Shown one piece after another: positions 14,154-44,197 of a DNA stretch of 64,000 bases; position 1 is the first letter of the stretch; the number at the start of each line of letters is the position of its first letter. This stretch comes from Lunularia cruciata. Its lineage: Eukaryota; Streptophyta; Marchantiopsida; Lunulariales; Lunulariaceae. The position numbers and the translations under genes were made by a program. The notes below the pieces were generated by a model that searched no databases, was not told the DNA's origin, and saw only the letters and a list, made by a program, of their open reading frames with translations. The DNA is taken from the NCBI GenBank assembly GCA_948567375.1, contig OX419757.1, positions 56,293,665 to 56,357,664 of the forward strand, in the 5' to 3' direction.

Positions 14154-14157
14154 ATAA

Positions 14158-21180: not shown

Positions 21181-21200
21181 AGCTTGTATCTTAGGTTCCA

Positions 21201-23600: not shown

Positions 23601-23743
23601 AGTGGCAGTCTTGGCTCACTACAGTCCAAGACCATGGCAACATCAGTTTTAGCTTTCAGTGGTGTAGTTACATAGCCTGGTGACTTGTTGGTGGGGAACG
23701 CCCATGTAGAGGATACTCCAATACTAGAGGAGATCACTCAGAT

Positions 23744-24933: not shown

Positions 24934-25467
24934 TTGAGGAGCCACACAAGTTGTTTTGCCTTTAGTATGAAGGATTTGGGTGCTCTAAAGGGACCTAGTA
25001 TACGGATTGAGCTGACTAGTGATACACCAATTTTCCAACGTCCTTATCAATATAGTGATATGGAGAGGACATTGATTCAAAGCCGAAGTAGTGACCTTTT
25101 TGAGGCTGGTTTGGTGGAGATCTCACATGGAGAGTATGCATAGTGACAATGATGCCAACCAAGAAGGATATGCATGGCAACTACACACATAGATGGATGT
25201 GTGGAGATAACCGTCCTATCAACCAACAGACCAAGGCTGATCGGTATGCCATGCCTACATTTGAGGAGATTTTTGATGCAATTGGGCATACAAAGGTCTT
25301 CAATACTTTGGATCTTTGAGCGGGATATCATCAATTGCTGATCAGGGAGGAGGATAAGTCCAAGACAACATTTTGGGCTATTGATCCTCACGGTAAGGAT
25401 GTGTTATATCAGTGGAGGTTCTTACTGTTTGGGGTTAAAGAACGCTCTTGTTGAGTTCCAGAGGGTC
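24934..25467 (+). mobile_element. Element A reverse transcriptase, first part
   Basis: It starts 'MRSHTSCFAFSMKDLGALKG' as in element C and runs to the point where element B is inserted, inside the equivalent of 'EFQRV|MDRI'. The rest of the domain continues at 44889. Confidence 0.82.
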
Positions 25468-26157
25468 TGTAACACCCATTTGTGCATGTGTGAGGTATTG
25501 TGATATTTAGCTTGGTATTACAAGTACTTGAGAGATATTAATTATATAAAGATAAAGGATGGTTCTACATTAGTCATGATTAGCTAAAGTTAGTTGTAGC
25601 TAAGATAAAGGGGACCTTACTTTAGAGGAGGTGGAAAAGATGAGCACCACTATTTTGGATTTAAGTGTGTTGACTTGGTATTATTCCTAGGTGTTTGGCT
25701 TTGAGGAATGAGTTGAGAACTCTTGGGCCCGCAAGCCTTTTTGTTTTGGATTCTTATATAGTCTAAGGATAGCCCATGTGAAGGAATCCTTGACTTAGTG
25801 GTTGGGTCAAGATAAGATCACATGCTAGTGGAATATGCCCATGTGAATGATATTCCTTTCTATTTTTTGACTTTACTTGACTTTTAGTCTAGTAACTTGA
25901 GTTACTAGGGTAATTGGTAAATTTGGTACGTAACTATTTCACAAGTATATAAACAAGGGGTGAGAAGGTACTCAACATCCTTTCATTTGCAACCATCTCT
26001 CTCTCATTGAGTTCTCTAATGAGCAATGTCTTGAGTCTTAGAGTGTTAGCCTCGGAGGAGTATGATGGAGTTGGGGTTCCTTGCCTTCTCAGCCCATGGT
26101 GCGCTACCATAATAGCCATCAGAGGTTCATCTTGAGTGAGAGACAGGCCGGCATACA
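25468..26157 (+). repeat. 5' LTR of element B
   Basis: It begins TGTAACACCCATTTG and ends GGCATACA. A TATA box ('tatataaa', 25946-25953) lies in a good position for the element promoter. It matches 44198-44888. Confidence 0.93.
25946..25953 (+). promoter_or_regulatory. TATA box in element B 5' LTR
   Basis: 'tatataaa' sits about 210 bp before the LTR end. It is conserved at 44677-44684 in the 3' LTR. Confidence 0.6.
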
Positions 26158-26159
26158 TT

Positions 26160-26180
26160 TTTGGTTCTGTTGCCGGGACC
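26160..26180 (+). promoter_or_regulatory. tRNA-Asp-like primer-binding site of element B
   Basis: 'ttggttctgttgccgggacc' follows the LTR and resembles TGGCGCCGTTGCCGGGGA, the tRNA-Asp site used by plant Athila/Tat elements, with a few substitutions. Confidence 0.65.
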
Positions 26181-26281
26181 TCTCTAGAAGGCAAGATAAT
26201 GTTCCGCGTTCAATTTTTCATTAGGCAGAAGGAGGCTATGAGAGCTCACTTGGAGAGAACATTAGGAGAGGAGAGGGCTAG

Positions 26282-28196
26282 TGTGACAACCCGGCAAATA
26301 TCACTTTTTTGGTAATCGGGTAAGTAAAGTTCATTCCCACAAAGATACGAGTCAGAAATGTCCAAATACGAAGCAAAGTAACAATTTCAGTTCTTCTTGA
26401 GTTCTTCTTTAGTCTCTCAGGTAGAAACCACACCCAGAAGAGAGTAACAAGCACTGACTCGCAGTCTTGTCACAAATTCACACTCCTTAATCACAACTCC
26501 ATCAATTATTTCCAAACAATCTTGATTGTGATAATTCAGGCTCTCCCAAAAACGGCACTTCACTGCAAAACGACTTCGCCTCAAAATTGTGTTCCACCCC
26601 TCCACTGAAGGCACAACTTCCTCGATCTAAATTGCTTCACATCAACTTTGCCTTGCACTCACAAATGCAGAATACTACCAACACTACAATTCCTCTCAGA
26701 TCTGTCAAGGCATTGCTTCGATTGCACTTCACTCAAGATCAAACACATAGAATGAAGATCAAGGCTGTGGAATCCAACATCCAACAAGCACTCTGACTTG
26801 CACTTCGAATTTCTCCAAACACTCACAAACACAATTACAAAGTTGATACTCAGAATCAAGCTCAAGCGACGAGCACTACTTCACAGCACTTTGCTTTATC
26901 TATTCTCAGAAATAATGAGCACTGAACAACATTTTCCTGCAAACGTCTCTCTTAAATAGTGAAGCAATCGATAGTTCTAACAACTATACCATTCTACAAC
27001 AACTGTTCTAACCTGCAGATCCGAAATGACAATGCAACCTTTCATATATGGCCCTTCAAATCTCAAATCGGTTTCTACTCCGATCCAATGTCTACTTCTT
27101 CCTCGGCTTTCAAACCCGAACCCGAAGTAATCTTACTTCCTACTACATTTTCCTCGGGTTTCACAACTCCTAATTCCTCCACTAATTCTAACATTTCTCC
27201 TTCCTGATATGAAATTCCTATCATAGTTAAGCCTTCTAAATCTCTATCTTCCGACCCACTCTTCTCTAAAGTGTCAAATGTCAAATTTGAAGACACTTGC
27301 ACTCCTATCACTCTTACTTCGGGTCTAACTACTATCAATTCTTTTACTAATTCTACTGTGTCATTGTCAAGAATTGTAATTGAAAGCATGAATACACTAT
27401 CTACACCTTCAATTTGTAACCCACTTTCTCCTAATCACTCATGTTACTAACCCGAAGACACTTATTGTCTGATCCTGCACTTCGGGTTTATTCACTACTG
27501 CTACTTCTCCTTCAATTCATGTTCCATCTTCAATCAGAACTGAAATTGAAGTCATAGGTATCCTAACTATCTTCTTTCCCTACTCTAATTTCCTCTGATC
27601 TCTCAGGAAAAACTCCCAAAGTCACCTTCAATGCACTCCGAGGTCCGACTTAGTCTTATTTAGTCATCTTCATCTTGAGACACAGTCTTTAGACCCGAAG
27701 TCATGTAAACCCGAAGTACGAAGTCTGAAGTCCGAAGTACAAAGTCACATTGACCCGAAAACACTTTGACCCGAAGTACATCTACTCCCAAAACTTCAAA
27801 TGGTTGTAACTTCTTCTAACAACCTCCAAAAATTGCGATTTTGGTGGCAATGGAAAGCCCTGAACAAGACGCTTCCAACAAGATATAACATGTTTGATTT
27901 GGACTTGTGTGCATTGAGATATGGCCCCCGCAAGAATCCTGACCTGCAACTTCTATTTCTCCTTCGGGTTTGCCCTCCTTAACGTCTGATCCGAGTTTTT
28001 CACTCCTCTGACACGAAGTAAGCTTCTTCGGGTTGGATCCAATCCAAATCCTTCTTCCTCTTACTTGAAGTCGACTTCCTTGGGTCTGATCAAATCACAG
28101 GTTTGCACTCATTTCTTCTCCATTTGGTTTCAATTTGGTTTCAGCAAGGCATTTCTTCTTCAAAACTCGTCCAAAATGAAAAATGTGGGTACCACA
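26282..28196 (-). mobile_element. Solo LTR (1.9 kb) inserted in element B leader
   Basis: On the minus strand it starts TGTGGTACCCAC and ends CCGGGTTGTCACA. The flanks are GCTAG (26277-26281) and GTTAG (28197-28201), a 5-bp duplication with one mismatch. Removing it restores the leader sequence seen in element G near 12150. It is the same family as the 3.7 kb solo LTR at 46817-50493, to which it aligns at both ends and around 27060-27390, but it is only about half as long. Confidence 0.85.
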
Positions 28197-28886
28197 GTTA
28201 GAGAACCAAGATCTATTTGTATACCATGTAGTTCATTATGATGTCTTTGAAGTGATTTTGTATAGCTTGTACACATGAGAGGATTTGGAAAGATTGTGTG
28301 AGGTGGATTGCAAATTTTGGGGATTAAGGTGATTTGGGGCAAAATCTCAAGTTTGAGATTTGAACTTGAAATTTCTACACATGATAGCTTGGGTTGTCCT
28401 TCAATTAGCATACTTGGAACTATTGTGATAGCGATTATGCGCATTGGGCTAGAATTCTTGAAAGTTGATAGGATAAACTGCTCCCGCAATTGCATGCTCT
28501 CTAGAAAATTGTACAGAGTTTGCCATTTCTTCATTTTTCAGTGGATTGTTGTGAAACTTTTCAAGAAAATGCCGTATGTTATATCCTACCTGTTGACATG
28601 AAAATTAGGGAGAGATCATTCTTGAATAGAGAGTTATGAGTTTTTGAAGTGAAGGGGGTGGTTTTGAGACCAAATCTGAAATATATGTGCTAAATAGAAA
28701 GGTGTCTAGGCCAAATGGCTCAATGAAAAGATCTAAAATTTTGCAAGGAGAGATGCCCTGGAGTTGTGATCAAGTGTGAAAAATTTCAGAGGACCTTCAC
28801 TTACAAGTTGAGAGATTTGAGTGAAATTGTGAGTAAAGATCAATTCTGCAAAGTTGAGATCTCATGCATGATGAGTTTGAGAGCAA
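28197..28886 (+). other. Element B leader, part between solo LTR and element C
   Basis: It matches element G leader (12150-12535, then 19230-19318 and 55931-56150). No coding function is evident. It lacks the host-gene segment found at the equivalent place in G. Confidence 0.7.
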
Positions 28887-28992
28887 TGTCGTGCGTATAT
28901 ACATCGCTACACAACATACATCGCTGTCAACATCATACACTATAAAAGCACAACTCACACATAAGTCATACATAGACTCTAAAGTGCCACAA
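28887..28992 (-). repeat. Terminal repeat B2 of element C (3' end)
   Basis: 106 bp, identical to B1 (29444-29549). In element orientation it ends CGCACGACA directly at the GCAA duplication. A TATAAAAG motif on the plus strand (28941-28948) points antisense to the element. Confidence 0.9.
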
Positions 28993-29441
28993 TAATCAGA
29001 TTGCTTAACATTCTCAACTCAACTCAACTCAGATCAGTACTTGATCTGTCACTCTATAAACTGCCAACAACTGGGCACTGATTACAGTCAAGCCACACCC
29101 ACTCAAGCATAGAGAATCCAGGTGACGCTCGCCGGCCTCTGTCCACCATAGCCAGGAACTCGAAGGCTCAACATCAGAGAAGTGAGCTCTCTGGAGCTCA
29201 CTTCGAAACTATACCCCCTGGACTCGAGCTAGCCCTGAAACCCTAACGGTCCCGCTGACGGCACACTCGACGGTGCAAACGGTGCAAAGTGACGGTGGGC
29301 CCCACCGTGAAGTCAGTACCCCGAACACGAAATCTAACCGTCGGAAAGTAGTCCCTGAGAAACAGCTAGAATAACTCTAACTACCATCACTTGAACTCTA
29401 GTGTCCGAGCATCTAGATGCGGAACTACAAATGGCGTGACA
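28993..29441 (-). repeat. Repeat A2 of element C
   Basis: 449 bp, same length as A1 (38124-38572) and differing from it at 3 positions by hand count. In element orientation it runs from TGTCACGCC to CTGATTA and is followed directly by B2. Confidence 0.92.
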
Positions 29442-29447
29442 GCTGTC
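29438..29447. promoter_or_regulatory. Palindrome GACAGCTGTC at the B1-A2 junction
   Basis: A perfect 10-bp palindrome formed where B1 (ending GACA), the dinucleotide GC and A2 (starting TGTC) meet. The two outer ends of element C are the two halves of this palindrome. This is the pattern expected if the integrating ends are made by opening such a site. Confidence 0.75.
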
Positions 29448-29549
29448 GTGCGTATATACATCGCTACACAACATACATCGCTGTCAACATCATACACTAT
29501 AAAAGCACAACTCACACATAAGTCATACATAGACTCTAAAGTGCCACAA
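29444..29549 (-). repeat. Repeat B1 of element C
   Basis: 106 bp, identical to B2. In element orientation it follows a G-rich polypurine stretch ('agggggggcga', 29550-29560) and precedes GC and A2. TATAAAAG lies on the plus strand at 29498-29505. Confidence 0.92.
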
Positions 29550-29560
29550 TCGCCCCCCCT
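29550..29560 (-). promoter_or_regulatory. Candidate polypurine tract of element C
   Basis: Read on the minus strand, 'agggggggcga' abuts B1. Element A has the equivalent 'agggaggcaa' just before its B repeat (55811-55820). If it primes plus-strand synthesis, the LTR would begin with B1. Confidence 0.55.
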
Positions 29561-29718
29561 AGCTGGCGGTTAGGTCCCTCTAACTCCAGATAGCCATCTA
29601 CTCTAAGTATATGGTATACCCTCTAATGGGCAAAGATCAGGAGGCCGGGTGCTATGGAGCCCCATCGTTAGTCGCCTGTCTGCAATCTATACCATATAAA
29701 GAATGAACTAGCTATAGA

Positions 29719-30972
29719 TCAAGTACATCTAGGACATAACCACTGTCCCTGAGGAACCACCGTGAGGGGAGGAGTCATACATGCCATATGCCATCCTCTC
29801 GAACAGCTATCACACACTAACATAGTAGCAGCTCCACCAGAAGAGCCACATAACATACACCTCAAGCCTGCACGTACAAGTGCCAAGCTTGGGTCCATAG
29901 TACCATCAATGTTTGGAAGGTGGCATGGCGCACAATTGCGCACATGATCCTTCCAAACAACACCATCACGTCCTTCTAACACAAGGACTCCAGATGGCAA
30001 AACCTCGTGCACTCTCAAGATAGTGCGGCCTGTAGAAACATCAAGTGTCGTCGGTGCTGTCTGCTGTAGATATACATAGTCGCCTGGATGAAATCGACGG
30101 ATCGAGGGTCTATAACCTCCTCCTTGAATGGTAGCATAGCGTAAAGTATCTCTATGCTGAGCAATCGCCAAGTTCTCGAAGGCCATCGGCATCACTCTCT
30201 GAAAGATCTCTGCCCGCTGAGAACATGCGCTCATCCATACATCAGGGTCATCCAAGTCCAAAATTACAGTAGCATCTCGACGAATGGCTGCAGGTAAATC
30301 TGGATCTCGTCCATAGAGTAGAAAGTATGGAGAGAAGGATGCTAAGGAGGCTTGCCGGCTGAACCGATAGCCCATGGCCAACCAAGGTAACTGGAGATCC
30401 CAATCTCCCAAGTGGCCTCTCTGCAAACCATACTTTCGCAATCCTCTCTTCGTCGTCTGAACCACTCTCTCTGCTAAGCCATCTGCCTCAGGGTGATCTC
30501 GGGATGTAGTACGATGATCAATCAAAGCCTTGTCACACAAGACCTGAAATTCTCCCAAGAACTCTGTACCCTGATCAGTCAAAACCTTAGCTGGTGCACC
30601 AAAATGACTAAGAACTCGATCCAGGAACGAGTAAGCTGTCCCTTCACTAGACTTGTCAGGAAGTGCCACCAACTCAATCCACTTGGAGAAGTGCTCCACC
30701 ATCACCAAAACATACCGATGATGTCTCACAGTCAGCGGTAAAGGTCCGGCGAAGTCCAAACTCCAACGGTAACCCAATCCCATGATAGGTAATGGGTGTA
30801 ACTGTGGCGTAGGAGCATTGAATGATGCTCTAACTCGGTCACAAACCACACATATGGCAACAAACTGCTGTACCTCGGTCTGCATACCGTGCCACCAATA
30901 ATGACTCTGGAGTAAGCTATATGTACGCTTTACTCCAAAATGTCCTAGCTCCTCATGAGCATGACGGACCAA
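29719..30972 (-). CDS. Element C integrase with C-terminal PHD finger
   Basis: 417 codons. It starts with the HHCC zinc-binding domain ('HEELGHFGVKRTYSLLQSHY' then 'CVVC', residues about 4-48). The DDE core follows: 'SLDFAG' near residue 70, 'LTDQGTEF' near 134 and 'HPEADGLAER' near 160-170. A C-terminal barrel-like segment ('FHPGDYVYL') comes next. The last 45 residues (about 372-416) form a Cys4-His-Cys3 PHD finger: CxxC, CDSC, WHMAC and a final WLCPRC. Family knowledge: the core inserts retroelement cDNA, and PHD fingers commonly bind the histone H3 tail. The PHD sits where chromoviruses have a chromodomain, so a role in choosing chromatin targets is inferred. The same arrangement is seen in element A (54419 to about 55645). 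Confidence 0.9.
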   Translation of the reverse strand: MVRHAHEELGHFGVKRTYSLLQSHYWWHGMQTEVQQFVAICVVCDRVRASFNAPTPQLHPLPIMGLGYRWSLDFAGPLPLTVRHHRYVLVMVEHFSKWIELVALPDKSSEGTAYSFLDRVLSHFGAPAKVLTDQGTEFLGEFQVLCDKALIDHRTTSRDHPEADGLAERVVQTTKRGLRKYGLQRGHLGDWDLQLPWLAMGYRFSRQASLASFSPYFLLYGRDPDLPAAIRRDATVILDLDDPDVWMSACSQRAEIFQRVMPMAFENLAIAQHRDTLRYATIQGGGYRPSIRRFHPGDYVYLQQTAPTTLDVSTGRTILRVHEVLPSGVLVLEGRDGVVWKDHVRNCAPCHLPNIDGTMDPSLALVRAGLRCMLCGSSGGAATMLVCDSCSRGWHMACMTPPLTVVPQGQWLCPRCT

Positions 30973-30981
30973 CTGTGGTCT

Positions 30982-31296
30982 CTATGATGGAAGTGGTACT
31001 ACTCGCACTCTACCATCCTCACATACACGCAAAAGGTGTCTACCCTCCAATCTGAACCGTCTGGCCCGCTGAAGAACACGGTCTCTCTCCTTGGCCCCAA
31101 CTGTGCCACCCACAACACCAGTGCGAAGATAGTCCATCACTAAGACATCATCATGAATGTCTCGCTGAACTGTACCAATATCTTCACTCTCTGGATCTGT
31201 CACCTCAATAACTCCTCCTGTATGCGCTGAGAGAGATACCACCAAAGTCTCTATAAATATACACAGAAAGGCCGATGCATGCCAACCTGGCACCAT
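30982..31296 (-). CDS. Element C linker between RNase H and integrase
   Basis: About 100 codons covering the N-terminal extension of integrase ('DVLVMDYLRTGVVGG', 'RARRFRLEGRHLLRV') that precedes the HHCC domain in gypsy elements. It is equivalent to 54100-54410 in element A. It has no known activity of its own. Confidence 0.65.
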   Translation of the reverse strand: MVPGWHASAFLCIFIETLVVSLSAHTGGVIEVTDPESEDIGTVQRDIHDDVLVMDYLRTGVVGGTVGAKERDRVLQRARRFRLEGRHLLRVCEDGRVRVVPLPS

Positions 31297-31309
31297 CTCC
31301 TCATCTGTC

Positions 31310-32737
31310 TCACCATGCCATCTGTCTCACCATGTCTCCTCCGGTCTGATCCTGCTGGCTGGGACATGGGTTTCTACTCAACCCATATGCATCACGGTTC
31401 ACCACTCCAGGTCTGTGAACAACCGTGAAATCATATTCCTGTAAAATCAGAGCCCATCGTGCAAGCTTCCCTGAAAGCTTGTCGGACTCCATCAACCACT
31501 TCAGCGGCTGATGATCAGTGATGAGAGTGAAGGGGTTACCAAATAGGTAACATCGGAAATGTGCTACTGCCCAAACTGCTGCCAAGCACTCTCCCTCATA
31601 TGAACTATACTTCGCCTCCGCTGAATTGTTGGAGCGACTAGCATAGGCCACCACAAACTCCTTCTCCTCATCATCATGCTGGGTGAGCACCGCTCCAAGC
31701 CCCAACATACTCCAATCAGTGTGAACCTGAAATGGTCGTCCCCTGATCGGTCTCCTCAAAATAGGAGCAGATGTCAACCTCTCCTTGAGCTCTACAAAAG
31801 CTCTCTCCTGCTCATCTCCCCAACACCACTCCTGTGTAAGCTTGGTCAGCTTCGTCAAGGCCTTGGCAATGGCACTAAATCCTCTAACATAGCGGCGATA
31901 GAAGTTTGCCAACCCAAGGAATGCTCGCACTCTGCTCACATCCGTAGGCCGAGGAATACGTGCAATAGCCTCCACCTTGGTCTGCTGAACACCAAGTCCT
32001 CCGGGGTAGATAGTGTGACCCAAATACTCAACCTGCTCATGGAAGAACCTACACTTCCCAGGATGTAATTTGAGTCCATGAGATCTCAACCTCTCAAACA
32101 CCTCCAACAACTGTCTCTCATGCTCCTCCACAGTAGTGCTATACACCAAAATGTCATCAATATAGCACCGAGCAAAATCCAGTCCAGCTAGGATCCTATC
32201 CATGACCCTCTGGAACTCAGCAGGAGCATTCTTCAACCCAAATGGTAAGAATCTCCACTGATATAACACATCCTTGCCGTGAGGATCAATAGCCCAAAAT
32301 GTTGTCTTGGACTTATCTTCCTCCCTGATCGGCAACTGATGATATCCCGCTCGAAGATCCAAAGTACTGAAGACCTTTGCATGCCCGATCGCATCAAAAA
32401 TCTCCTCCGGTGTAGGCATGGCATACCGATCAGCCCTGGTCTGTCGGTTGATAGGACGGTAATCTCCACACATCCGCCTATCTGTATAGTTGCCATGCAT
32501 ATCCTTCTTGGCTGGCATCACTGTCGCTGATGCATACTCTCCATGTGAAATCTCCACCAAACCAGCCTCAAAAAGGTCACTACTCCGGCTCTGAATCAAT
32601 GTCCTCTCCATCTCACTATATCGATAAGGACGTCGGAAAACAGGTGTGTCGCTAGTCAGCTCAATCCGTATACCAAGTCCCTTCAGAGCACCCAAATCCT
32701 TCATACTGAAGGCAAAACAACTCGTGTGACTCCTCAA
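31310..32737 (-). CDS. Element C reverse transcriptase and RNase H
   Basis: 475 codons. Reverse transcriptase landmarks are 'DYRPINRQTRADRYAMP', 'TLDLRAGYHQLPIRE', 'FGLKNAPAEFQRVMD' and the catalytic 'YIDDILVYS' near residue 192. RNase H follows from about residue 310, with 'VHTDWSMLGLGAVLTQ', 'AYASRSNNSAEAKYSSYEGE' and 'DHQPLKWLM' near 409. It copies the element RNA into cDNA and removes the template. The order RT, RNase H, integrase is that of Ty3/gypsy. 'TDWS' stands where many gypsy RNases H have 'TDAS'. The branch within Ty3/gypsy is not clear to me; it lacks the FIDDF core of Athila/Tat and has no chromodomain. Confidence 0.92.
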   Translation of the reverse strand: MRSHTSCFAFSMKDLGALKGLGIRIELTSDTPVFRRPYRYSEMERTLIQSRSSDLFEAGLVEISHGEYASATVMPAKKDMHGNYTDRRMCGDYRPINRQTRADRYAMPTPEEIFDAIGHAKVFSTLDLRAGYHQLPIREEDKSKTTFWAIDPHGKDVLYQWRFLPFGLKNAPAEFQRVMDRILAGLDFARCYIDDILVYSTTVEEHERQLLEVFERLRSHGLKLHPGKCRFFHEQVEYLGHTIYPGGLGVQQTKVEAIARIPRPTDVSRVRAFLGLANFYRRYVRGFSAIAKALTKLTKLTQEWCWGDEQERAFVELKERLTSAPILRRPIRGRPFQVHTDWSMLGLGAVLTQHDDEEKEFVVAYASRSNNSAEAKYSSYEGECLAAVWAVAHFRCYLFGNPFTLITDHQPLKWLMESDKLSGKLARWALILQEYDFTVVHRPGVVNRDAYGLSRNPCPSQQDQTGGDMVRQMAW

Positions 32738-32845
32738 GAACCTCCAAACCCTCCGTCTTTCCTCTCCAGTAAGCTTGGGTCCAAGATCTGGCTCCCAAGT
32801 ATCCTCTGTAACTGTAGTAGGAGTGGAAGACGTACTGACTGGCTG

Positions 32846-35800
32846 CTATACTGGGCCCTTGGGAGCAATGGTGTCATGCTCCCGACCACTAGAGGTCCCA
32901 ACCTCTGTGTGAAAAACTCCCTCCACTCTGGCTGCAAGCTCCATACGTCCTCTGGCTGCATCCCATGTGGACCAAGGGTGTAATCCAAGTAGCCCACGCT
33001 CACCTGGATGGACTCCAAGTAGACCACTCTCCCTAATAGCTACTGGATGTGTCCCAAGAATACCATGTCCACTCGGTCCATCGCCCCCAGCATGTGCCTG
33101 AATCGTCTCGATAGGCACAGGGCTCACAAGTGTCCGAGTGGTGATGCCTATCAAGCGCATCCTACACTGCTCTGCCAAACCAAGGCTCACAATCCAGGTC
33201 AAACAGTTCAGGTCCATAGCCTGACCTAACACCTGACGCCTGGATGCCTCTGACACTGCTGGAACAGCGGTAATACCGGTGCGAAAACCCATCGCCCGCT
33301 CTCTCTCATCAGCATTGGGCTCCACCAACTGCTGTAACTGTGAGTCCCAAACAAGTCCAGGTCCTCCCTCTCGAAAAGCATGAGAGCCTGGGAAACTCAT
33401 GAGTGTGGGAAATGCAGCTCTAGGCTGTCCAACTAGGTTCACCACTGCCATGGGTGACCTATCAGCCACTACCACTGTCTGAGACTGACGCCCAACATCC
33501 AAGATATCATCAACAAGAATGTGGTCCAGTCGCTGAATCCCATCATAAGCACGCTGTAGAACCTCTCTGGGTAAGAGGTTTGTCCACCAAAGACGAAGAC
33601 GATGAGCCCGTGATCCCACTCTGGCTGCATCTAACAATACAGCAGGTCCCATCCATGAATGGACCTGATGTGTACTCTCCACCACTCTAGTGCGAGAATC
33701 ACCCATCAATGGAACGTTCTCCAAAAGGTAAGCTGGAGAAACAGACTGATGAACCTGGAGATGTCGTAGTATCCGTAACATCTCCCAAAACACACCAGAA
33801 CGAGGATCCTGAAGACCCAAACCGCGGCCCGCACATGTATGTCCCTGACATGGCCATCCAGAAATCACCAAGTGAACATGCCCATGTCTCTCTAGGTCAT
33901 GCGCCCCCAGTAAGGAAATGTCTCCTGGTAAGGCCTTCTGGTAACCTCTGACTGCTGACATCGGTAATAACTCCGGATACCGATAGGCCAAGTGTGCCAC
34001 ATGATGTAGAGAGACTCGCCTAGCAGTCTCATCTCTCTCTACATACAAGTACCTCTGTACTCGGATACCCGCCTGTAATACCGCAGCTAGTCCGGTGCTG
34101 ATCCCACCAAACAACTCCAATAGGCATATCCCCTCTATTGGATACTGCCAAGCAATGAGTGTGGTATCCAGAGGTGTCAAAGCAATCGCCTCTGGAGGCT
34201 CATCCTCACACTCATCCCCTGATGGTACGAAGGCTCCACTCCAAGCCTGCTGCACCAACTGATCTGCATGCTGCTGCAATGCCTCCTCTAAACTCCACAA
34301 TGGAACATCCAAGGTGGATGGAACAATCCCACTCGTACTCCATAGCCGAGTGATCTCCTCTGGTATTGGAGTATCCTCTGCATGGGCGTTCCCCTCCAAC
34401 AAGTCACCAGGCCAAGTAACTGCACCGCTGAAAGCCAAAACTGATGCTGCCATGGTCCCGGACTGTAGTGAGCCAAGATTGCCACTACTGAAGCGTACTG
34501 GTAGGCGACATACCCGTCCCTCACCAGACTGCCAACCAGGTCTATAAGAGGCTGTCTCCTCCCAATAGTCAATACTGAAACCCATAGGGTATAACACTGC
34601 TCCCCCAACTAGCACATCATATGACTCAGCTATCGTCGCAATAGCCTGAGCTCTCACCACCGAGCTATCAGTCGGATGACCAGGCTGAACCTGGACAACA
34701 AGCTCTCCACGTGTGATGTACTGTGTCGAACCACCACCAAGAGATGTCTGGATCTGAAATGGACACCTCTCCACATCGGTCTTCCGTAACTCCAGACCAA
34801 CAACTGCAGCCTTCCCCAACATAAGGGGCTGCGCACCAGAGTCTAACAAGACTCTCTGTGGTGTATAGACCTTCCCTGAAGGTCCTACCAAACAAAAGAT
34901 CCCCCTCTGGTTATCCAATAGGACAACACCAGGTGTAAACCGCGCTCTCTCAAAGGCCGGTCTAGCTGGCAACTCCTCCAATCTAGCCGCTGCTGCCTGC
35001 CATAAACCACTGGTCGCTGAACGGATCCCATGCTCCTCAACCAAGTCAGCTCCACTACCAACCACCTCTGCTCTAGTAGTAGGAACTGCACCATCCCTAC
35101 TCTCACACAACGTGGCAGCCAACCGGAACACTGGGGCTGGGTCCACTCCCAATGTAAACATGTCACTGGCTGAAAATAAAGGATGCCGCATAATCAGCTG
35201 AGCCGCCCCCAACATCATGCTAAACTCAGTCTGTGTAGTAGCAAGTGGCTGACTAGCAGGTACTCCATCAAGTACTCCATCACCACCTACCACACCTGCA
35301 CTGGGACGTCTAGGAACCATGGATGTCGTCTGCAATGCCTCAGATAGCGTGAAAGATTGGGGAAGTCTGACCTGTCTCCCAACCTCTCCTCTCTGTGGGT
35401 CCAACTCCACTGATGCTCCTCTAGGCTCTGGAGCACGTACTGCACTCCTAGTCACTGCTGCAGATGCATCCACCTGTGCTGCTCCGCACATGAAGTCCAA
35501 AGCATCTCTATCACCAGCATATGAGGTGGAAGCCTCAGCACCCGAATCTGATCTCCTATGAGCAATAGCCATACTAGCCAATCTCTGCTCCAACTGCTCA
35601 ATCCGAGTAGCCATAGCTGTGTCAGAAGTAAGGGCAGGTACTGCACCCCTACTAGGTGTAGATCCTCTACCACCACCTCTACCACCTCGTCCTCCATGAA
35701 CTGGAGCTCCTCTACTACCTGCCATAGCAGCCCTACCACTCCGTAACTCCGGGTGTAGGTCAAAACACCGGTCACTAGTATGACCAAATCTATGGCAGTG

Positions 35801-37150
35801 CTCACACTGCCTCTGTGCTGGCTGTGATGCACCAGAGGTATCAGGTCCGCTGCCCTGAGTACACTCTCTCCTATGGTGAGGTCCACCACAAGTCCAACAA
35901 GCAACACCACCACTCACTGGCTGCTGCTGACCCGAAAATGAGGGTAAGGGTCTAACTCCACTAGGCCCTCCACTCGCTCCATAGGATCTGGGCTGTCCAC
36001 CCTGTCCTCGAAACCCAACTGGGCATGGTGCACTCTGCTGCACTCTAGAAGAAGTCACAACCATGGATGAGGTCTCTCTACCAAATCCAGATGTCACCAC
36101 TCTCTCCTCCACCATGTTGAGCTCAATACGCTCAGCCAAACCAAAGACTACTGCCAAAGTGGGCGAAGTAGCCTGCAACAACGTAGCATCACGAACTCTA
36201 CGTCGCAACTCCCTGTCCAGTATCCCATACCAAAACTGGACTGCCTGGGCCTCAGTAACTCCCTGAGTGAAACTGATCAGCCGCCTCATGCAAGTGTATG
36301 CCTCGCGTAGGCTCTCTCTAGCCTTCCGCTGGAACTCCTGCAAGCTCCTCAGCTTGTCAGTCCGCACTCCCTGGTAGTTCTGCCTCAAACATAGGAAGAA
36401 CTCAACCATGGGGTTAAACCCCGATACCACACCACCTCCTGCAGCGGTACCTCCACTCGTAGTAGCACTATCTCCAGCTAGTGCACCTCCACTAGCTCCA
36501 CCAACACTACTCGAGCTAGAACTCGTAGGTACAGCCGACCTACTCCTGGCCACCGAACCTGAAGTGATGGAGACATAGTGTGGAGACCAATACTGTCTCC
36601 ATAACTCAATCTCCTCCAAATGAGCTCTCCTGAACTCATGGTAGTCGTCCATCGGTGGACCCTCCAAGTGCTGAAACAACCCCTTCCATGCCATGAAGGG
36701 TGTGAACAAAGTCGGGTTCCGCATCTGCTGCAGATCACACCAACCATCGAACTCCTGGATGAAGTCATCCAACTCAATGGTACCCACTGTACCAGAGTAA
36801 CGCCTAGGGCCTTTGGAGGCCCCATAAATCTCGTCCATGTCCCACAACAACGGTGCGGACACACCAAGTGCACTCTCAACTGAATCAGCTCCTGTGTCGA
36901 ACTCCAACTCAGAGTCAATCTCCTCCCTCACTGGGACCTGAGATACAGGTTGATACCGAGCACCACTCCGAGTAAACCCACTGCGTACTGCAGGGCTAAC
37001 TCCTCTGGAATCTCCAAAGAACTCCGTCGTGACAAAGTAACCACACCAACAAACCCGAACCACCAACTGCAACAGCAAGTCGCAACCGCAAGTGCCCCAC
37101 CAAGTGCCAACACCAACTAAAACACCACCCACTAATGTAACTCTAACCAA
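32846..37150 (-). CDS. Element C Gag-protease-DNA cytosine-5 methyltransferase polyprotein
   Basis: 1434 codons in one open frame. The true start may be downstream, because the first 70 residues read like translated leader. The gag core includes 'VEFFLCLRQNYQGVRTDKLR' (about residues 250-350). Two zinc knuckles follow: 'CWTCGGPHHRREC' (about 417-430, C-x2-C-x3-H-x4-C) and 'CEHCHRFGHTSDRC' (about 448-461). The protease carries 'VLLDSGAQ' near 768. A cytosine-5 methyltransferase occupies about 1000-1330: motif I 'LLELFGGISTGL' (about 1015), motif IV 'ISGWPCQG' with the catalytic Cys (about 1098), motif VI 'LLENVPLM' (about 1145), motif VIII 'AHRLRLWWTNLL' (about 1181), motif IX-like 'ERERAMGFRTG' (about 1280) and motif X-like 'LGQAMDLNCLTW' (about 1307). 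The motif order is canonical, and motifs I, VIII and X most recall the DNMT3/DRM group. All key motifs look intact. Predicted activity: C5 methylation of DNA. Confidence 0.92.
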   Translation of the reverse strand: MVRVTLVGGVLVGVGTWWGTCGCDLLLQLVVRVCWCGYFVTTEFFGDSRGVSPAVRSGFTRSGARYQPVSQVPVREEIDSELEFDTGADSVESALGVSAPLLWDMDEIYGASKGPRRYSGTVGTIELDDFIQEFDGWCDLQQMRNPTLFTPFMAWKGLFQHLEGPPMDDYHEFRRAHLEEIELWRQYWSPHYVSITSGSVARSRSAVPTSSSSSSVGGASGGALAGDSATTSGGTAAGGGVVSGFNPMVEFFLCLRQNYQGVRTDKLRSLQEFQRKARESLREAYTCMRRLISFTQGVTEAQAVQFWYGILDRELRRRVRDATLLQATSPTLAVVFGLAERIELNMVEERVVTSGFGRETSSMVVTSSRVQQSAPCPVGFRGQGGQPRSYGASGGPSGVRPLPSFSGQQQPVSGGVACWTCGGPHHRRECTQGSGPDTSGASQPAQRQCEHCHRFGHTSDRCFDLHPELRSGRAAMAGSRGAPVHGGRGGRGGGRGSTPSRGAVPALTSDTAMATRIEQLEQRLASMAIAHRRSDSGAEASTSYAGDRDALDFMCGAAQVDASAAVTRSAVRAPEPRGASVELDPQRGEVGRQVRLPQSFTLSEALQTTSMVPRRPSAGVVGGDGVLDGVPASQPLATTQTEFSMMLGAAQLIMRHPLFSASDMFTLGVDPAPVFRLAATLCESRDGAVPTTRAEVVGSGADLVEEHGIRSATSGLWQAAAARLEELPARPAFERARFTPGVVLLDNQRGIFCLVGPSGKVYTPQRVLLDSGAQPLMLGKAAVVGLELRKTDVERCPFQIQTSLGGGSTQYITRGELVVQVQPGHPTDSSVVRAQAIATIAESYDVLVGGAVLYPMGFSIDYWEETASYRPGWQSGEGRVCRLPVRFSSGNLGSLQSGTMAASVLAFSGAVTWPGDLLEGNAHAEDTPIPEEITRLWSTSGIVPSTLDVPLWSLEEALQQHADQLVQQAWSGAFVPSGDECEDEPPEAIALTPLDTTLIAWQYPIEGICLLELFGGISTGLAAVLQAGIRVQRYLYVERDETARRVSLHHVAHLAYRYPELLPMSAVRGYQKALPGDISLLGAHDLERHGHVHLVISGWPCQGHTCAGRGLGLQDPRSGVFWEMLRILRHLQVHQSVSPAYLLENVPLMGDSRTRVVESTHQVHSWMGPAVLLDAARVGSRAHRLRLWWTNLLPREVLQRAYDGIQRLDHILVDDILDVGRQSQTVVVADRSPMAVVNLVGQPRAAFPTLMSFPGSHAFREGGPGLVWDSQLQQLVEPNADERERAMGFRTGITAVPAVSEASRRQVLGQAMDLNCLTWIVSLGLAEQCRMRLIGITTRTLVSPVPIETIQAHAGGDGPSGHGILGTHPVAIRESGLLGVHPGERGLLGLHPWSTWDAARGRMELAARVEGVFHTEVGTSSGREHDTIAPKGPV

Positions 37151-38123
37151 GATAACTACACTAGGGGAAGGGCAACCTGTAACCTGCCATCATAACACGC
37201 ACTCTCACGGTCTACAGGTCATCACTTCTTGCCTCACCGGAGAGAAACAAAGGTAGTCTGACTGGTCATCACTCCAGCCTCACCACCGAGAGCACACCAG
37301 AGCACCAACGCTCAAAAGTCAAGGCACCTCACACAAACGTGGTGCACAAACAGGAAGCAAAGAATGGAGGGGATCCAATCACAGGAAATCTAAACAAAAA
37401 CCCTCCATCTCATAACACAACACGGGACTGACTCTGCCACCATTTGGCATTTGACATAAGAGTAGTTCGTATCTAAGTCCTAAGCTACCAGGATCACCAA
37501 GAATGGGATCAAACTGCCTCTCCTAGCCAAAGCTACATGTGTATAAATAACAGTGGCACAGTCACTATGACAACAAGTGAGGGTGGACCAGTTGGCTAGG
37601 GCACCAGTCTAGGAACAAGAGATCTAGGGGTCAAACCCTGTTGCGCACAATCTAGCAAGAAAGGCAGATTTTGCCAACCAATGACCAAGATCTACACTAA
37701 ACTAGCTAGCCTCACGCCAGCAAGCTGGCTTGCTGGCCCTTCTGGCCCTTCTAGGCCTTTGTAGCCTCTCATAGCCCACAGCCCTATGCCTCGAAGCCTC
37801 CAACTCTAGCCTCCAACTGGAGCTTTCCAACTCCACCTTCAATTTCACTTTCTGAGCCCAACTCGCAGCAAATTCGTCCTGCCTTCACCTCTTGAGCTCA
37901 AAATCACAACACTGCTCGAAAATTGCTCCTTCTTTGCTCGAAATTTGGCCAGCGCTTCCGCACACCGTCCGCCTAACTGCCAAATTTGCATCAACTACAC
38001 GAGTTCTACACTCTAGGGAAACACAGAACCTGAATCGAGCTACCACGATCCACCGAGCTTGGAGATACCACCAACACTCAACGTTCCTGCACCCGATTTC
38101 CCCCTGACTTCACTTCTCTGATG
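37151..38123 (-). other. Leader of element C, non-coding
   Basis: About 1 kb between A1 and gag, matching 19769-21180 of element A. Immediately after A1 the minus strand reads 'catcagagaag', a weak match to the ATCAGAG core of the tRNA-Met primer site. No convincing open frame is present. Confidence 0.6.
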
Positions 38124-38572
38124 TAATCAGATTGCTTAACATTCTCAACTCAACTCAACTCAGATCAGTACTTGATCTGTCACTCTATAAACTGCCAACA
38201 ACTGGGCACTGATTACAGTCAAGCCACACCCACTCAAGCATAGAGAATCCAGGTGACGCTCGCCGGCCTCTGTCCACCATAGCCAGGAACTCGAAGGCTC
38301 AACATCAGAGAAGTGAGCTCTCTGGAGCTCACTTCGAAACTATACCCCCTGGACTCGAGCTAGCCCTGAAACCCTAACGGTCCCACTGACGGCACACTCG
38401 ACGGTGCAAACGGTGCAAAGTGACGGTGGGCCCCACCGTGAAGTCAGTACCCCGAACACGAAATCTAACCGTCGGAAAGTAGTCCCTGAGAAACAGCTAG
38501 AATAACTCTAACTACCATCACTTGAACTCCAGTGTCTGAGCATCTAGATGCGGAACTACAAATGGCGTGACA
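38124..38572 (-). repeat. Terminal repeat A1 of element C (5' end)
   Basis: In element orientation it runs from TGTCACGCCATTTG to CTGATTA and is followed by the leader, not by B. It is paired with A2 at 28993-29441. Confidence 0.92.
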
Positions 38573-38576
38573 GCAA

Positions 38577-39300
38577 CAAAAAGCATATTTGAGTGTTTAG
38601 ATTTATCTTGTGAACATGGAGGGTCATCAAGAGTGGAAATTGAGACTATGCAAGGTTCCCAAATGGTTTGAGGTGATTATAGGGGTGGATTTGAGGAAAA
38701 GAGAGTTTACAATAGAATTTGAAGAGAATGTTGAGAGGATCCAAAAACCTACATTTGGAGGAAAGAATGAGTCTAAGTGCTTTCTATGTGGAGAGAAGGG
38801 ACATAAGGCAAGTTCATGTCCATTGACCTTTGAAAGCAAGAGATTGAAGGGAAAGAGAGGCTTACTTGACTTGGGGTTTGCATGGTGGACCTTCTTCACT
38901 ACGACTGGGAGGGAGAAGATCTAAGACCAAGGAGTTGTGTGAGGTTTGTGGAGTTGAAGGACTTCCAAAAGGACATGAATATAGTGGAGTAAAATCACTT
39001 TTGGAGACTTTGGTGAACGATCTTGGAGAGAGTCTTAGTACAGCTACAGAAACACTACCACGTTCATCAGCTAGTTCTCAAGATTAGTGATGGAGATAAT
39101 CTTTCAACTTATGGATAAACTATCCATGAGAATTAGATTAATATGCACTCTAGGATTTGATGTTGCTATAGAAATCTTGGAGTAATCTAAACCTTTTGTG
39201 CTCCATAGAGTGGATTATTCTCAGATGGTGTTAGTCATATATATACTCTTTTAGTTATAGTGTGAGAGAAAACAAATTTGAGAGAAAAGAAAGATAGTGA
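38577..39300 (+). other. Element B leader with small CCHC zinc-knuckle frame
   Basis: Leader resuming after element C. The frame at 38610-38924 carries 'CFLCGEKGHKASSC', a C-x2-C-x4-H-x4-C zinc knuckle lying upstream of gag. A further Cys-pair segment, 'KELCEVCGVEGLPKGHEY', follows near 38930-38990. Both have counterparts in element G (about 56340-56560), so the segment is a family trait rather than chance. Its origin is unknown; it could be a captured fragment of LINE or host coding sequence. Confidence 0.6.
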
Positions 39301-39309
39301 GGAATTAAG

Positions 39310-40320
39310 ATGGGGAAACTTCCGTTTTTCTTTGGCAAGGATGGAGAAGATGAGAAAGCCTTTGTGAGAGACTTCATGAGAGCTTGCATAGGAAACAATG
39401 AGAGGAGGAAGAATGAGTGGGCCTCATTATTACCAAATTTCTTTGAGGATGCAGCACTTACATGGTATGAGTCAGAATACCAAAAGAGAGAGAGGAGAGA
39501 TGGGGAAGAAGAGTCTTGGGAGAGTTTGAATTCAGCACTCATTGAGAACTTTCTCCCAGATGAGAGTTATGAAAGATTGATGAGTAAGGTTACCTTTCTC
39601 AAACAAGGATATGGAGAGAAATTGAGAGTCTATGTGGAAAGAGTGGAAAAGTTAGAGTCTAGGTTTTGCATAGTGTTGAGGAAGAGTGGGGATGATGTGG
39701 AGACTACTATGATTGGCATAGGAGCCATGCTCACCAAAAATTTTGTGGGAGGATTGAGATCACAAATTAGAAGCAAGGTGAGATATTAGAAACCTTCTTC
39801 CAAGGTTGAAGCTATCAAGATTGCAATTTGTGTGGAGGAGAGTTTGGAAGGAGATGAGAGTGATTTGGTGGTGAAGGAGGTTGTACATCATCCTCAAGGC
39901 TACAATTATGGTGGAACTTTTGATACTTTGGTGGCAAGGATTGCACTACAAGTAGTAGTTGCTCCAGTTCTTGTACCTCCACCAAAGTATCCACTTCAAA
40001 CCATCACATAACAACTTGCAAATCTCAAAATTAATGCGGTGCAACTATGGGAGAAGAGAGAGGTGGATCAGAATGTAGGGAGAGAGCCTAGGAGTTATGG
40101 AAACTATCTATATAGAGGAGGCCAACCAGCCAACAATTTCAATGATAGAAATACTTTTGGTTGTGGAGGAAGAGGCCATATCCAAAGGAATTGCCCAAAT
40201 TCCACTTACCATGGAGGAAGGGGTTATGAGGGAGCCAATAGAGGGAAAGAGGGAGGTAATGAAACCTAAGTGGCTCCTTATCCAAACAAAGGTAAGGGGA
40301 TAGCATCTATAGATGTGGTT
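39310..40320 (+). mobile_element. Element B gag region
   Basis: The frame at 39310-39789 starts 'MGKLPFFFGKDGEDEKAF' and contains the gag core 'EDAALTWYESEYQ' and 'LIENFLPDESYERLM'. A CCHC knuckle ('CGGRGHIQRNCP', about 40165-40200) follows. This is the capsid and nucleocapsid precursor region, equivalent to 56880-57920 in element G. It is fossil and broken. Confidence 0.85.
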
Positions 40321-41050
40321 GAGAGCAGGTATGAGAAGGGAGAGTGCTCAAACTCCAAGGGTCTTAATTTGGAGCTTTTGGCACAAGAGAAGAAGAGAGC
40401 TCATTTTGCAAAGGATGTTCACTTTTCTCAAGAATTTACTCCAAGAAAGGATACTCCTACATCTACTAGGAGCACTCGCACCTCAACACCATCAACAACA
40501 AAGACTCCAATGAAGAATTTGGGGATGGAAGATTTCTTGATTTCAAAGCAACAGTGGAACTACAATGTGTTAGAGGATGTTGGTAGCCACAAGGCTAACA
40601 TCATAGTGGGCCAATTTATTGCTTTGAACCCTACCTTGAGAAAAGAGCTTAGAGTTGTTGTGAGTTCTACAAGGAGCATGAGGAAGAAGAAGGCAAAGGC
40701 TCCAATATCAATGGGGGTGGTAGATGCCAAGCCAATACCATGGGAGGTTTGTGAATATGCCTCCAAGATTGATGTGAGAGTGAATGGCCACAACATCAAG
40801 GATGCATTGGTTGATGGAGGATCAACAATAAATGCCATGTCAAAAAGGTTGATGAAGAAGTTGGGTATGATACTCTCAAGACCTTCAACATTTGTGATGA
40901 GTATGGCAAACAAGCAACAAGTTTGATTAGTAGGGGTGATAGATAAGGTGGTAGTTTCAGTTATGGGAGTTCAAAATCTCATGACTTTCCAAGTCTTGAA
41001 GGATTCAAGCTATGACTTACTTCTTGGGAGGCCATGGTTGAGAGCAGCAC
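40320..41050 (+). mobile_element. Element B protease region
   Basis: The motif 'DALVDGGSTINAMSKRLMKK' near 40807 is the aspartic-protease segment of Athila/Tat-like elements. The downstream part near 41010 ends in the 'LLGRPWL' segment usual for the end of the fold. It is fossil. Confidence 0.75.
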
Positions 41051-41232
41051 GCACAACTGATTGATGGCACAAAGGGTACTTGAGGATTTGGCCATCAACC
41101 CATAGAGTCATAATTCTTGTGACTCACACCACTAACACTTCACATTTAGATACACCATCTTCTGATTATTGGGAATTAGATTCTAAAGAAGGAGCTTCAA
41201 GTGTGGACACAAGCATGGAAGAGTAGACTTCC

Positions 41233-42260
41233 ATGGAGGAGGATGAATCTGAATCTGATTTTGATTCAGATGTGTATCCTTTGTGTGCTATGGATTTTGC
41301 ACCTAAGCCAGAGGTTTTGAAGGACCCAGATAAATCACCATTGATACTTGAGGAGGTAGAGAGAAGGTTATTTACCCTTAAGTATGGTCCAAATGTTACC
41401 AAGGAGGAGAAGGTGAGATTTGAGGAGATTTTTTGCAAGTTCATTCATGTGTTTGCTTTTAGTCACAAGGATTTGAAGGAAGTCACCTTGGAGGAGCACA
41501 AGATAGAGGTGGAGTCACATGCAAGACCAATCCGCCAAAAGCAACATTGCATTAGCCCACCAATATTTTTGGTTGTGAAGGAGGAGATTGATAAGCTCAA
41601 GGAGGTTAGATTTATCTTAAAGGTAGAGAATTCAGAATGGGTGTCTCCAATTGTCATTGTGAAGAAAAAGAATGGCAAGCTTTGGGTTTGTGTGGATTAC
41701 AAGAAGCTCAATGTTGTTACCAAGAAGGACTACTACCCATTTCCATTCATTGATGAGATCTTGGAGGAGGTTGTAGGTCATAAGAGGTATAGTTTTGGAG
41801 ATGGTTATAGTGGATATAACCAAATTAAGATTGCACCAGAGCATCAACAACTCACCACGTTAACCATACCTTGGGGAACTTTTGCTTTCAAGGTCATGCC
41901 TTTTGAGCTTTGCAATGCTCCAGCCACATTCTAACGGTTCATGAACAAGGTATTTGAACCTTTCATTGGGAAATTTGTGAGAGAGTTCATTGATGACTTT
42001 TGTGTCTATGGAAGCAAGGAGGAGCACTTTGAGCACCTAATCAAGGTCTTGCAACGCTTGGATGAGGCAAATGCATCACTCAACCCAAAGAAGTGCATTT
42101 TTGGATGTGAAGAAGGTCTACATTTGGGACACATCATCTCCAAGGATGGAATAGCAGTTGATCCTAAGAAGGTGAGGAAAATCTTAGACCTTCCATTCCC
42201 TTCAAGCTTCAAGCTTGACAAAGTTACACCAATTCTTGGAGATCGTTGGGTACTATAGGA
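41233..42260 (+). mobile_element. Element B reverse transcriptase region
   Basis: Landmarks are 'SPIVIVKKKNGKLWVCVDYK', 'DYYPFPFIDEILEEV', 'SGYNQIKIAPEHQ' and the catalytic 'FIDDFCVYG' near 41990. The FIDDF core and the DYYPFPFID segment are typical of Athila/Tat. It is fossil and broken. Confidence 0.88.
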
Positions 42261-42328
42261 GGTTCATCTTCTCATTTTCCAACAAGGCTTATGCATTGAC
42301 CATCTACATGAAGAAGGGTGTAGATTAA

Positions 42329-42868
42329 ATGGTGATTTTGGAGGACAAGGAGGCTCTCAAAGCTTTTGAGGAGCTCAAGCAATCCCTTGTTGTAGCTCTA
42401 ATTCTTGCTAAACCTGATTGGAGTAAGCCTTTCATCCTCTACATTGATGCTTCTAATGTTGCTATAGGATGCACTCTTAGTCAATTAGACCAAGATGGGC
42501 ATGATCATTCAATAGCTTATGCTAGTAGGTAGATGGTTTCAACAGAGAAGAACTACTCTGTCAAGGAGAGAGAAGGGTTGGCAGTGATCTTTGGTCTCAA
42601 GAAGTTTAGACACTATTTGATTGGAGGGAAAGCCACCATTGTCATAGATCACAAGGCTTTGAAGTACATCTTCAACAAGCCTAATGTTGAAGGGAGACTA
42701 GCAAGGTGGACGATACTCTTGCCTGAGTATGACTACACCATTGAGAATAGGCCAAGAAAGAAACATGCAAATGCTGATTTGTTATCTAGGGCCTATGATC
42801 ATGATGGATATGAGCCAATGGATGATTCCTTCCCGGATGAGGAGCTCATGACAATCTCAATCACTTAA
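42329..42868 (+). mobile_element. Element B RNase H region
   Basis: 'FILYIDASNVAIGCTLSQLD', 'NYSVKEREGLAVIFGLKKFR', 'VIDHKALKYIFNKP' and 'NADLLSRAY' follow the gypsy RNase H order. It is fossil. Confidence 0.85.
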
Positions 42869-42877
42869 GAGGTTCCA

Positions 42878-44155: not shown

Positions 44156-44197
44156 CTTCACTTTGAGGATAAAGTGAAAACTTAGTCCGGGAGTAAA

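Follow-up and report, generated by a model that had tools for sequence, protein, structure and literature searches.

Retroelements that carry their own cytosine methyltransferase have been described from algae and dinoflagellates. The closest described system is KnitGypsy-Dnmt3 of Klebsormidium nitens, a gypsy element with a DNMT3 domain and split repeats (de Mendoza et al. 2018, PMC5890265; like the other papers below, cited from excerpts), and the acquisition was placed in the K. nitens lineage by that study. Here we analysed a 64,000-nucleotide stretch of the liverwort Lunularia cruciata (GenBank assembly GCA_948567375.1, contig OX419757.1, positions 56,293,665 to 56,357,664; hereafter the window). 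Judged by its frames and domain matches, one unit within it, element C, is a Ty3/gypsy-type retrotransposon with a DNMT3-type domain located after the protease in its first open reading frame (ORF1). The methyltransferase-retroelement pairing is thereby extended to land plants, and the puzzle of an element carrying the enzyme of its own silencing becomes approachable in tractable plants, Marchantia having close relatives. An original prediction, made from the sequence alone, had proposed that the element may write its own methylation; our results partly support this interpretation.

The methyltransferase domain and the frames of element C

The original prediction of a methyltransferase in the 32846-37150 frame was borne out. 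DNA_methylase was the sole Pfam match of ORF1 (4.4e-7), scoring 30.1 bits where the cut-off is 22, and a profile of 11 sequences, in which 8 of the 10 non-window members are 41-52% identical to the window, matched DNMT3A in the PDB at 2.7e-24, far beyond chance. DNMT2-type enzymes matched far more weakly than DNMT3 in this search, and DNMT1 and CMT chains were not among the 57 PDB sequences matched. The AlphaFold2 model of the domain has a predicted local distance difference test score (pLDDT) of 91.6, and the solved structures closest to the predicted fold, among the best rows listed, are DNMT3A and DNMT3B, many of them with DNA bound; DNMT3 is the closest kin both by sequence profile and by predicted fold. 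Motifs I (LLELFGGISTGL), IV (ISGWPCQG), VI (LLENVPLM) and VIII (SRAHRLRLWWTNLL) and the IX/X stretches lie within 33206-34123 in the canonical order claimed for them, and both the catalytic Cys of PCQ and the Glu of ENV are present. These comparisons leave us nearly certain that the domain is a DNMT3-type cytosine-5 methyltransferase domain.

Capture of a DRM gene, already considered unlikely, was rejected on the unrearranged motif order and the profile rank. DUF3444, which is C-terminal in host plant DNMT3, was absent from the Pfam matches of all three main frames. A bacterial or phage origin was also rejected: only one of five loci in prokaryote genomes was strong (L013, 53%) and four were weak, and in a tree of 37 rows the bacterial and viral-contig enzymes were separated, with 100/100 support, from the retroelement domains together with a single human DNMT3A segment, DNMT3A, the sole DNMT3 reference, being on a long branch. 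Scanning viral contigs with the methyltransferase profile gave 12 weak loci. Two viral contigs, L001 and L006, encode C5-methyltransferases with 59.9 and 53.6 bits, the top scores among the matches to viral contigs and Streptomyces, and pair in the tree.

L013 (positions 1-9285), a contig binned as an uncultured Synechococcales cyanobacterium, carries a retroelement with both DNMT and PHD and has an overlap of 127 bp between its two ends. It was discarded as a bacterial source and is likely eukaryotic contamination of a metagenome-assembled genome (MAG). The same is likely for P0066, named 'DNA cytosine methyltransferase [Candidatus Obscuribacterales bacterium]' and 51% identical to the retroelement domain of the window. 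Caution is warranted, as some 'DNA methyltransferases' of bryophyte gene sets, plus one in a bacterial MAG, resemble retroelement domains.

ORF1 lies on the minus strand and comprises 1434 aa when counted from the first TTG; a plus-strand reading of 32846-37150 meets 62 stops. This TTG is doubtful as a start because the first residue of the Marchantia models P0002 and P0003 corresponds to Met105 (36836-36838). As predicted, the domain is found between the protease motif and the reverse transcriptase (RT). RT, RNase H and a DDE integrase (IN), the gypsy domain set, were all detected by Pfam. RT and RNase H are in the ORF1 frame with one TAG between, and the integrase uses a different frame that contains H2C2 and rve followed by a C-terminal PHD finger.

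The stop contexts of element C (TAG CAG CCA) and L013 (TAG CAA TCA) fit the leaky-stop consensus TAG-CAR-YYA, and that of an older copy in the window (TAG CAG CAA) is one position off. UAG followed by CAR YYA has been described as essential for readthrough in tobacco mosaic virus (PMC2754532), and rice gypsy elements include readthrough candidates (PMC2754532; also PMC4132726). Furthermore, L013 displays an unbroken two-frame plan, in which an ORF1 with methyltransferase (6.8e-12) is followed in frame by RT, RNase H, integrase and PHD (4.3e-10), and in 23 of 28 proteins of ORF1 type, counting the window, the end of the protein, at a stop codon or otherwise, lies 76-170 aa past the domain. On balance we expect the TAG to be read leakily. 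Since the domain lies ahead of this leaky-type stop, the methyltransferase is predicted to be produced in Gag amounts.

We found 61 proteins in the methyltransferase search, and used the best 120 of 197 in a second such search and the best 120 of 414 with the integrase-PHD frame. Hosts named among the matches listed were Marchantia polymorpha, M. paleacea, Riccia sorocarpa, Calypogeia fissa, Sphagnum fallax, S. troendelagicum and Closterium. K. nitens was named among them for the integrase only, with no K. nitens-named protein among the methyltransferase matches listed, and no vascular plant was named among the matches listed. Marchantia relatives are 72-74% identical in the domain. A quick tree, reduced from 91 to 80 rows and lacking several short or near-duplicate Marchantia rows, placed the window in a 24-row clade with the 17 bryophyte-labelled rows and 6 others (Shimodaira-Hasegawa-like approximate likelihood ratio test, SH-aLRT, 99), and a careful tree recovered a clade of the window, Marchantia, Calypogeia and Sphagnum at 100/100. 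The integrase tree was concordant, with a 13-row clade (support 98) that includes one short outgroup piece; two such pieces behaved badly, and this one entered the window clade by long branch.

Across 186 domain proteins, the methyltransferase (MT) was located before RT in 17 (MT-RT, 7; MT-RT-IN, 10) and between RT and integrase or after RT in 17 (RT-MT-IN-PHD, 11; RT-MT-IN, 3; RT-MT, 3). The rows of the latter kind present in the tree (15 of the 17) lie within a single 18-row clade (SH-aLRT 99), suggesting that the domain moved once and was not captured many times. The after-RT rows of the integrase tree fall in a clade of 44 rows (SH-aLRT 96), to which the domain-first protein P0062 also belongs.

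Loss of PCQ and ENV in nearly all other copies, named in the original prediction as a sign against it, was not the pattern among the relatives, in which the catalytic Cys and Glu are nearly invariant. In the 186 domain proteins (window included), the catalytic Cys was kept in 129 of 132 covered (Y in 3, gap in 54) and the motif VI Glu in 152 of 163 covered (K in 10, G in 1, gap in 23). C117, E160, N161, R200 and R202 are common to all 11 profile sequences. The position before the catalytic Cys is Pro in 111 proteins, Glu in 22 and a gap in 53; motif IV reads ECQ in place of PCQ in 22 of 133 covered proteins (e.g. P0033, P0038, P0039, P0045 and P0052), and the ECQ proteins listed, Closterium included, retain the catalytic Cys. 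Identity to Marchantia P0003 was 74% in the domain, 64% in gag, 61% in the protease, 54 and 51% in the linkers and 41% in the tail; the corresponding values against L013 were 53, 29, 43, 34 and 26, and 32%. By sequence identity, the methyltransferase is therefore better conserved than any other part of ORF1, both against Marchantia and against the distant relative L013.

The best PDB kin of the PHD finger, within the best 60 of 94 sequences, are CHD4 (2.8e-17), KMT2D, KMT2C and PHF12, then DPF3, KAT6A, KDM5B and PHF21A. Integrases were assessable (a match of more than 250 aa followed by more than 40 aa) in 98 of 302 proteins, and 87 of these 98 carry the finger: 12 of 18 found via the methyltransferase search and 75 of 80 found via the PHD-bearing query frame, counts that are biased by the query, the second methyltransferase search (197 matches) having given no assessable integrase. 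In K. nitens, the finger is present in two integrases (2.9e-11 and 4.9e-9). The Pfam match of P0062 stays below the threshold, at 18.4 bits where 24 are required, and no finger was found in Closterium P0060 or in two further proteins, P0038 and P0042, all of which retain the methyltransferase. No chromodomain match was obtained with Pfam in the window frames up to an E-value of 0.01, and scans of viral contigs with the integrase-PHD frame and with a DNA pattern gave nothing. In Marchantia, two annotated genes (P0207 and P0261) contain integrase-PHD pieces beside methyltransferase matches in an odd order, with Pfam detecting the PHD only; they could be fragments or a domesticated PHD gene.

Insertion history and methylation scars

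Element C has the coding-strand order A-coding-B-A-B, i.e. DIRS-like split repeats, with an internal B-A junction GACA-GC-TGTC (Table 1). A1 and A2 differ by 3 transitions, 2 at CG and 1 at CHG. When the flanks of element C were joined minus one GCAA, they aligned across the insertion point to the sequence from 55927 onward with a score of 280, and the left flank alone scored 168, whereas 200 shuffles reached 41 at most. Because this empty-site alignment spans the insertion point, the unit was inserted at once with a 4-bp duplication. DIRS retrotransposons use a tyrosine recombinase and are not known to make a target-site duplication, and membership of element C in that group was rejected on the rve integrase and the 4-bp duplications.

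We read the three parts of the older copy (copy A) as one element split by later insertions, longer than the extent first seen. It is flanked by the target duplication CCAA (19315-19318 and 55927-55930), and its empty site lies inside the flank repeat of element C with a score of 156; the left flank alone scored 70, with shuffles reaching up to 51, which is weaker evidence than that for element C. Its order is A-coding-B, with a single B repeat at its end (55820-55926) compared with B-A-B in element C; either the second A-B set was lost via B-B recombination or there are two integrated forms. Copy A had also been claimed to carry this domain at the corresponding position; the claim held as to presence and position, but the domain there is dead: it has four in-frame stops, about 117 codons (1200-1316) are unmatched, and the motif IV Gln and motif VIII Arg residues are lost.

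The ratio of nonsynonymous to synonymous substitution (dN/dS) between element C and the older copy was 0.35 over the 192 codons of the domain core and 0.45 over the 233 codons of the domain as a whole; gag gave 0.40, the gag-domain interval 0.52, RT 0.23 and the tail 0.85, and with part 3 it was 0.35 for RNase H, 0.55 for the integrase and 0.15 for the PHD finger (47 codons); such two-copy values are weak, as the older copy is dead and decays at CG and CHG, and its deletion affects the whole-domain figure.

Cytosines of element C correspond to a transition in part 1 of the older copy at 119/339 CG, 184/633 CHG and 140/2047 CHH sites, and in part 3 at 56/139, 47/191 and 35/710 sites, respectively, which amounts to 35-40% at CG, 25-29% at CHG and 5-7% at CHH. 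In the reverse direction (cytosines of the older copy lost in element C), counts were 9/106, 18/278 and 62/2231 in part 1 and 2/30, 2/79 and 21/813 in part 3, or 7-9%, 3-7% and 3%. Since this decay pattern is the mark expected, it suggests that the older copy was CG- and CHG-methylated. The observed/expected CpG ratio was 0.49 in element C, 0.16-0.20 in the older copy, 0.17 in a copia element, 0.07 in another gypsy element (measured over 38577-43500) and 0.23 in other window DNA. As other window DNA is as CG-poor or poorer, host silencing alone explains the CG depletion; the decay points to general silencing and does not identify the writer of the mark.

Element C is nested inside the later long terminal repeat (LTR) element of Table 1, in which gag, protease-like and RT frames occur between 39301 and 41934. 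The copia element (13740-18607) has terminal repeats of about 400 bp that are 96% alike, an integrase frame at 15590-16402 and an RVT_2 frame at 16633-17616. Searches of the window for tRNA and Rfam families were empty, ten further window frames gave gag matches in two and nothing in eight, and no host genes were found within the window.

Table 1. Positions of element C, its parts and the copies nested with it in the window
Feature	Position	Strand	Basis or remark
Element C, whole inserted unit	28887..38572	minus	9,686 bp, ends TGTC...GACA; repeat ends and flanks, empty-site alignment, frames
ORF1, stop to stop: gag, zinc knuckles, protease, methyltransferase	32846..37189	minus	likely ATG 36836-36838
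Two CCHC zinc knuckles	35765..35899	minus	motifs read by eye, no Pfam match
Aspartic protease motif LLDSGAQ	34829..34849	minus	read by eye, no Pfam match
DNMT3-type cytosine-5 methyltransferase domain, aa 1005-1325	33176..34138	minus	Pfam, PDB profile, AlphaFold2, fold matches
In-frame TAG then CAGCCA	32840..32848	minus	fits TAG-CAR-YYA leaky-stop consensus (PMC4132726, PMC2754532)
Reverse transcriptase and RNase H, frame shared with ORF1	31310..32845	minus	Pfam RVT_1 4.8e-32, RT_RNaseH 8.7e-37
Integrase core (rve)	30490..30771	minus	Pfam 3e-13
PHD finger, integrase C terminus	29725..29859	minus	Pfam PF00628 7e-11; PDB CHD4 2.8e-17
Repeat A1, 5' end of element C	38124..38572	minus	451-bp match to A2 (38124-38574), 3 differences
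Repeat B1	29444..29550	minus	107 bp, identical to B2
Repeat A2	28993..29443	minus	match to A1
Repeat B2, 3' end of element C	28887..28993	minus	identical to B1
Target-site duplication GCAA, right copy	38573..38576	.	empty-site alignment
Target-site duplication GCAA, left copy	28883..28886	.	empty-site alignment
Older copy (copy A), part 1: A repeat, gag-protease-methyltransferase, RT start, decayed	19319..25467	plus	
Older copy, part 2: RT fragment	44890..45089	plus	
Older copy, part 3: RNase H, integrase, PHD, single B repeat	53783..55926	plus	
Later LTR element nested in the older copy	25468..44889	plus	terminal repeats 25468-26151 and 44198-44882, 96%

Possible roles of the methyltransferase

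The role that we favour, while judging it a little short of probable, is that the element methylates its own fresh complementary DNA (cDNA) in particles, before integration. A leaky TAG would yield Gag-protease-methyltransferase in excess over Gag-Pol, the enzyme would be packaged together with the element RNA, and CG-type methylation would be laid on the cDNA and then kept by host maintenance enzymes. The new copy would arrive in the genome already silenced or marked as self, and the PHD finger may steer the integrase to histone H3 tails. The presence of gag, zinc knuckles, protease and methyltransferase in a single frame follows a particle logic that supports a role on cDNA. The kept catalytic residues and the methylation-like scars of the copies also speak for it. 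Moreover, the DNMT3 domains of two dinoflagellate DIRS elements carried out de novo CG methylation in yeast (PMC5890265). A wider scenario, which we regard as possible and rather doubtful, would make this an ancient streptophyte-wide family, older than land plants, in which a DNMT3 writer produced at Gag level methylates the cDNA, the integrase PHD finger picks the chromatin and the element silences itself on arrival, and which is still moving in liverworts and peat mosses.

Several observations weigh against self-methylation of the cDNA or against parts of it. The leaky-stop case consists of three DNA sequences, two of them from the same window. The pol region of element C is broken twice, by a frame change near 31310-31330 and by a stop at 30982-30984 in the integrase frame, and the domain of the older copy is dead. 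The dN/dS of the domain core exceeds that of RT, and the whole-domain value is higher still. No PHD finger was found in any of 10 relatives that encode one polyprotein, have an integrase and carry the domain before RT, several of which are incomplete, and the integrase-PHD structure model is poor (pLDDT 59.6). CpG decay was rejected as proof of self-methylation, the neighbouring DNA being equally or more depleted. Finally, the Klebsormidium gypsy domain was inactive in yeast, a result that its authors called inconclusive (PMC5890265).

Other roles were weighed against the same evidence. The domain might act in trans, on the host genome or on insertion-site chromatin after nuclear entry, guided by the PHD finger and tuning local silencing. 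Writer and histone reader do often co-occur, as in the 12 of 18 assessable integrases from the methyltransferase search, and the 11 proteins of RT-MT-IN-PHD order fuse both in one polyprotein; however, in the window lineage the stop lies between the writer, on the Gag side, and the PHD finger, on the Pol side, and the protease would part them. Closterium P0060 as well as P0038 and P0042 have a methyltransferase with no PHD finger found, and we hold this role to be rather unlikely. It is unlikely, too, that the domain merely retains binding to nucleic acid or S-adenosylmethionine and serves mainly a structural role or one on RNA, such as packaging or RNA methylation. Its position adjoining gag and the zinc knuckles would suit such a role, as would the lack of DNA methylation by the Klebsormidium domain in yeast and the RNA methylation raised for dinoflagellate SymbioLINE-Dnmt (PMC5890265), but the catalytic Cys and the ENV Glu are nearly invariant, and the nearest structures, DNMT3A and DNMT3B, are DNA-bound in many cases, while DNMT2-type enzymes matched the profile far more weakly.

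Host enzymes alone (MET1, CMT) might instead methylate the element, with its own methyltransferase mainly shielding the cDNA from a host nuclease or deaminase directed at DNA that lacks methylation. Scars at both CG and CHG are usual in plants, and the neighbouring elements are as CG-poor, both of which suit this explanation; we nevertheless find it quite unlikely, as we know of no such host factor here and the shield is speculation, also raised in PMC5890265. That the domain is a passenger, or decayed and without function, appears very unlikely: it could be argued from the dead domain of the older copy, the broken pol of element C and the pairwise dN/dS of the whole domain, but it sits poorly with a domain that is the best conserved part of ORF1 at both evolutionary distances and with five residues shared by all 11 profile sequences. 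Methylation of the fresh cDNA by the element's own enzyme is the role that we retain, tentatively, from these comparisons.

Comparison with known systems

No earlier report of a DNMT-bearing retroelement in land plants was found in the open-licence literature, subscription papers lying outside the scope, and the excerpted liverwort papers do not mention one, PMC12885004 containing none of the four words looked for in it; a passage of PMC12344493 says 'streptophytes' when citing the 2018 paper. Among host genes, PpDNMT3a/b of Physcomitrella (PMC6453930) have a DNMT3-type catalytic domain as found here, but with a C-terminal DUF3444. Chromoviruses (PMC2832683) likewise place a histone reader at the integrase C terminus, but it is a chromodomain instead of the PHD finger of element C. 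SymbioDIRS-Dnmt3 and SymbioLINE-Dnmt of dinoflagellates (PMC5890265) are also retroelements with cytosine methyltransferases, of DNMT3 type in the DIRS ones, but use tyrosine recombinase or LINE machinery, whereas element C has a DDE integrase and a 4-bp target duplication.

KnitGypsy-Dnmt3 resembles element C in its unrearranged DNMT3-type domain, its DIRS-like split repeats and its conserved key residues. In contrast, PMC5890265 assigns its DNMT3 to the Pol ORF, whereas that of element C lies in the gag-protease frame, in frame with RT and with one TAG between; and the string 'phd' occurs 0 times in the main text of that paper, whereas element C has a PHD finger on its integrase. For the DNMT, that paper gives a Ka/Ks below 0.2; our core and whole-domain values, 0.35 and 0.45, come from a comparison with a dead copy. 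The K. nitens PHD integrases P0188 and P0219 are about 53-54% identical to that of the window; they may or may not belong to KnitGypsy-Dnmt3, and the K. nitens integrase-PHD homologs fall in other clades of the integrase tree than the window. Unlike the K. nitens element, the relatives of element C form a bryophyte clade. The occurrence of relatives in Closterium and in bryophytes suggests that the acquisition is older than the K. nitens lineage. Within the literature searched, the following are new: the bryophyte clade, a domain that precedes a stop of leaky type, the PHD finger, and split repeats for which target duplications give the proof. Elements of this kind have been known since 2018, and to these our sequence comparisons add named liverwort and Sphagnum relatives that form one well-supported clade with the window.

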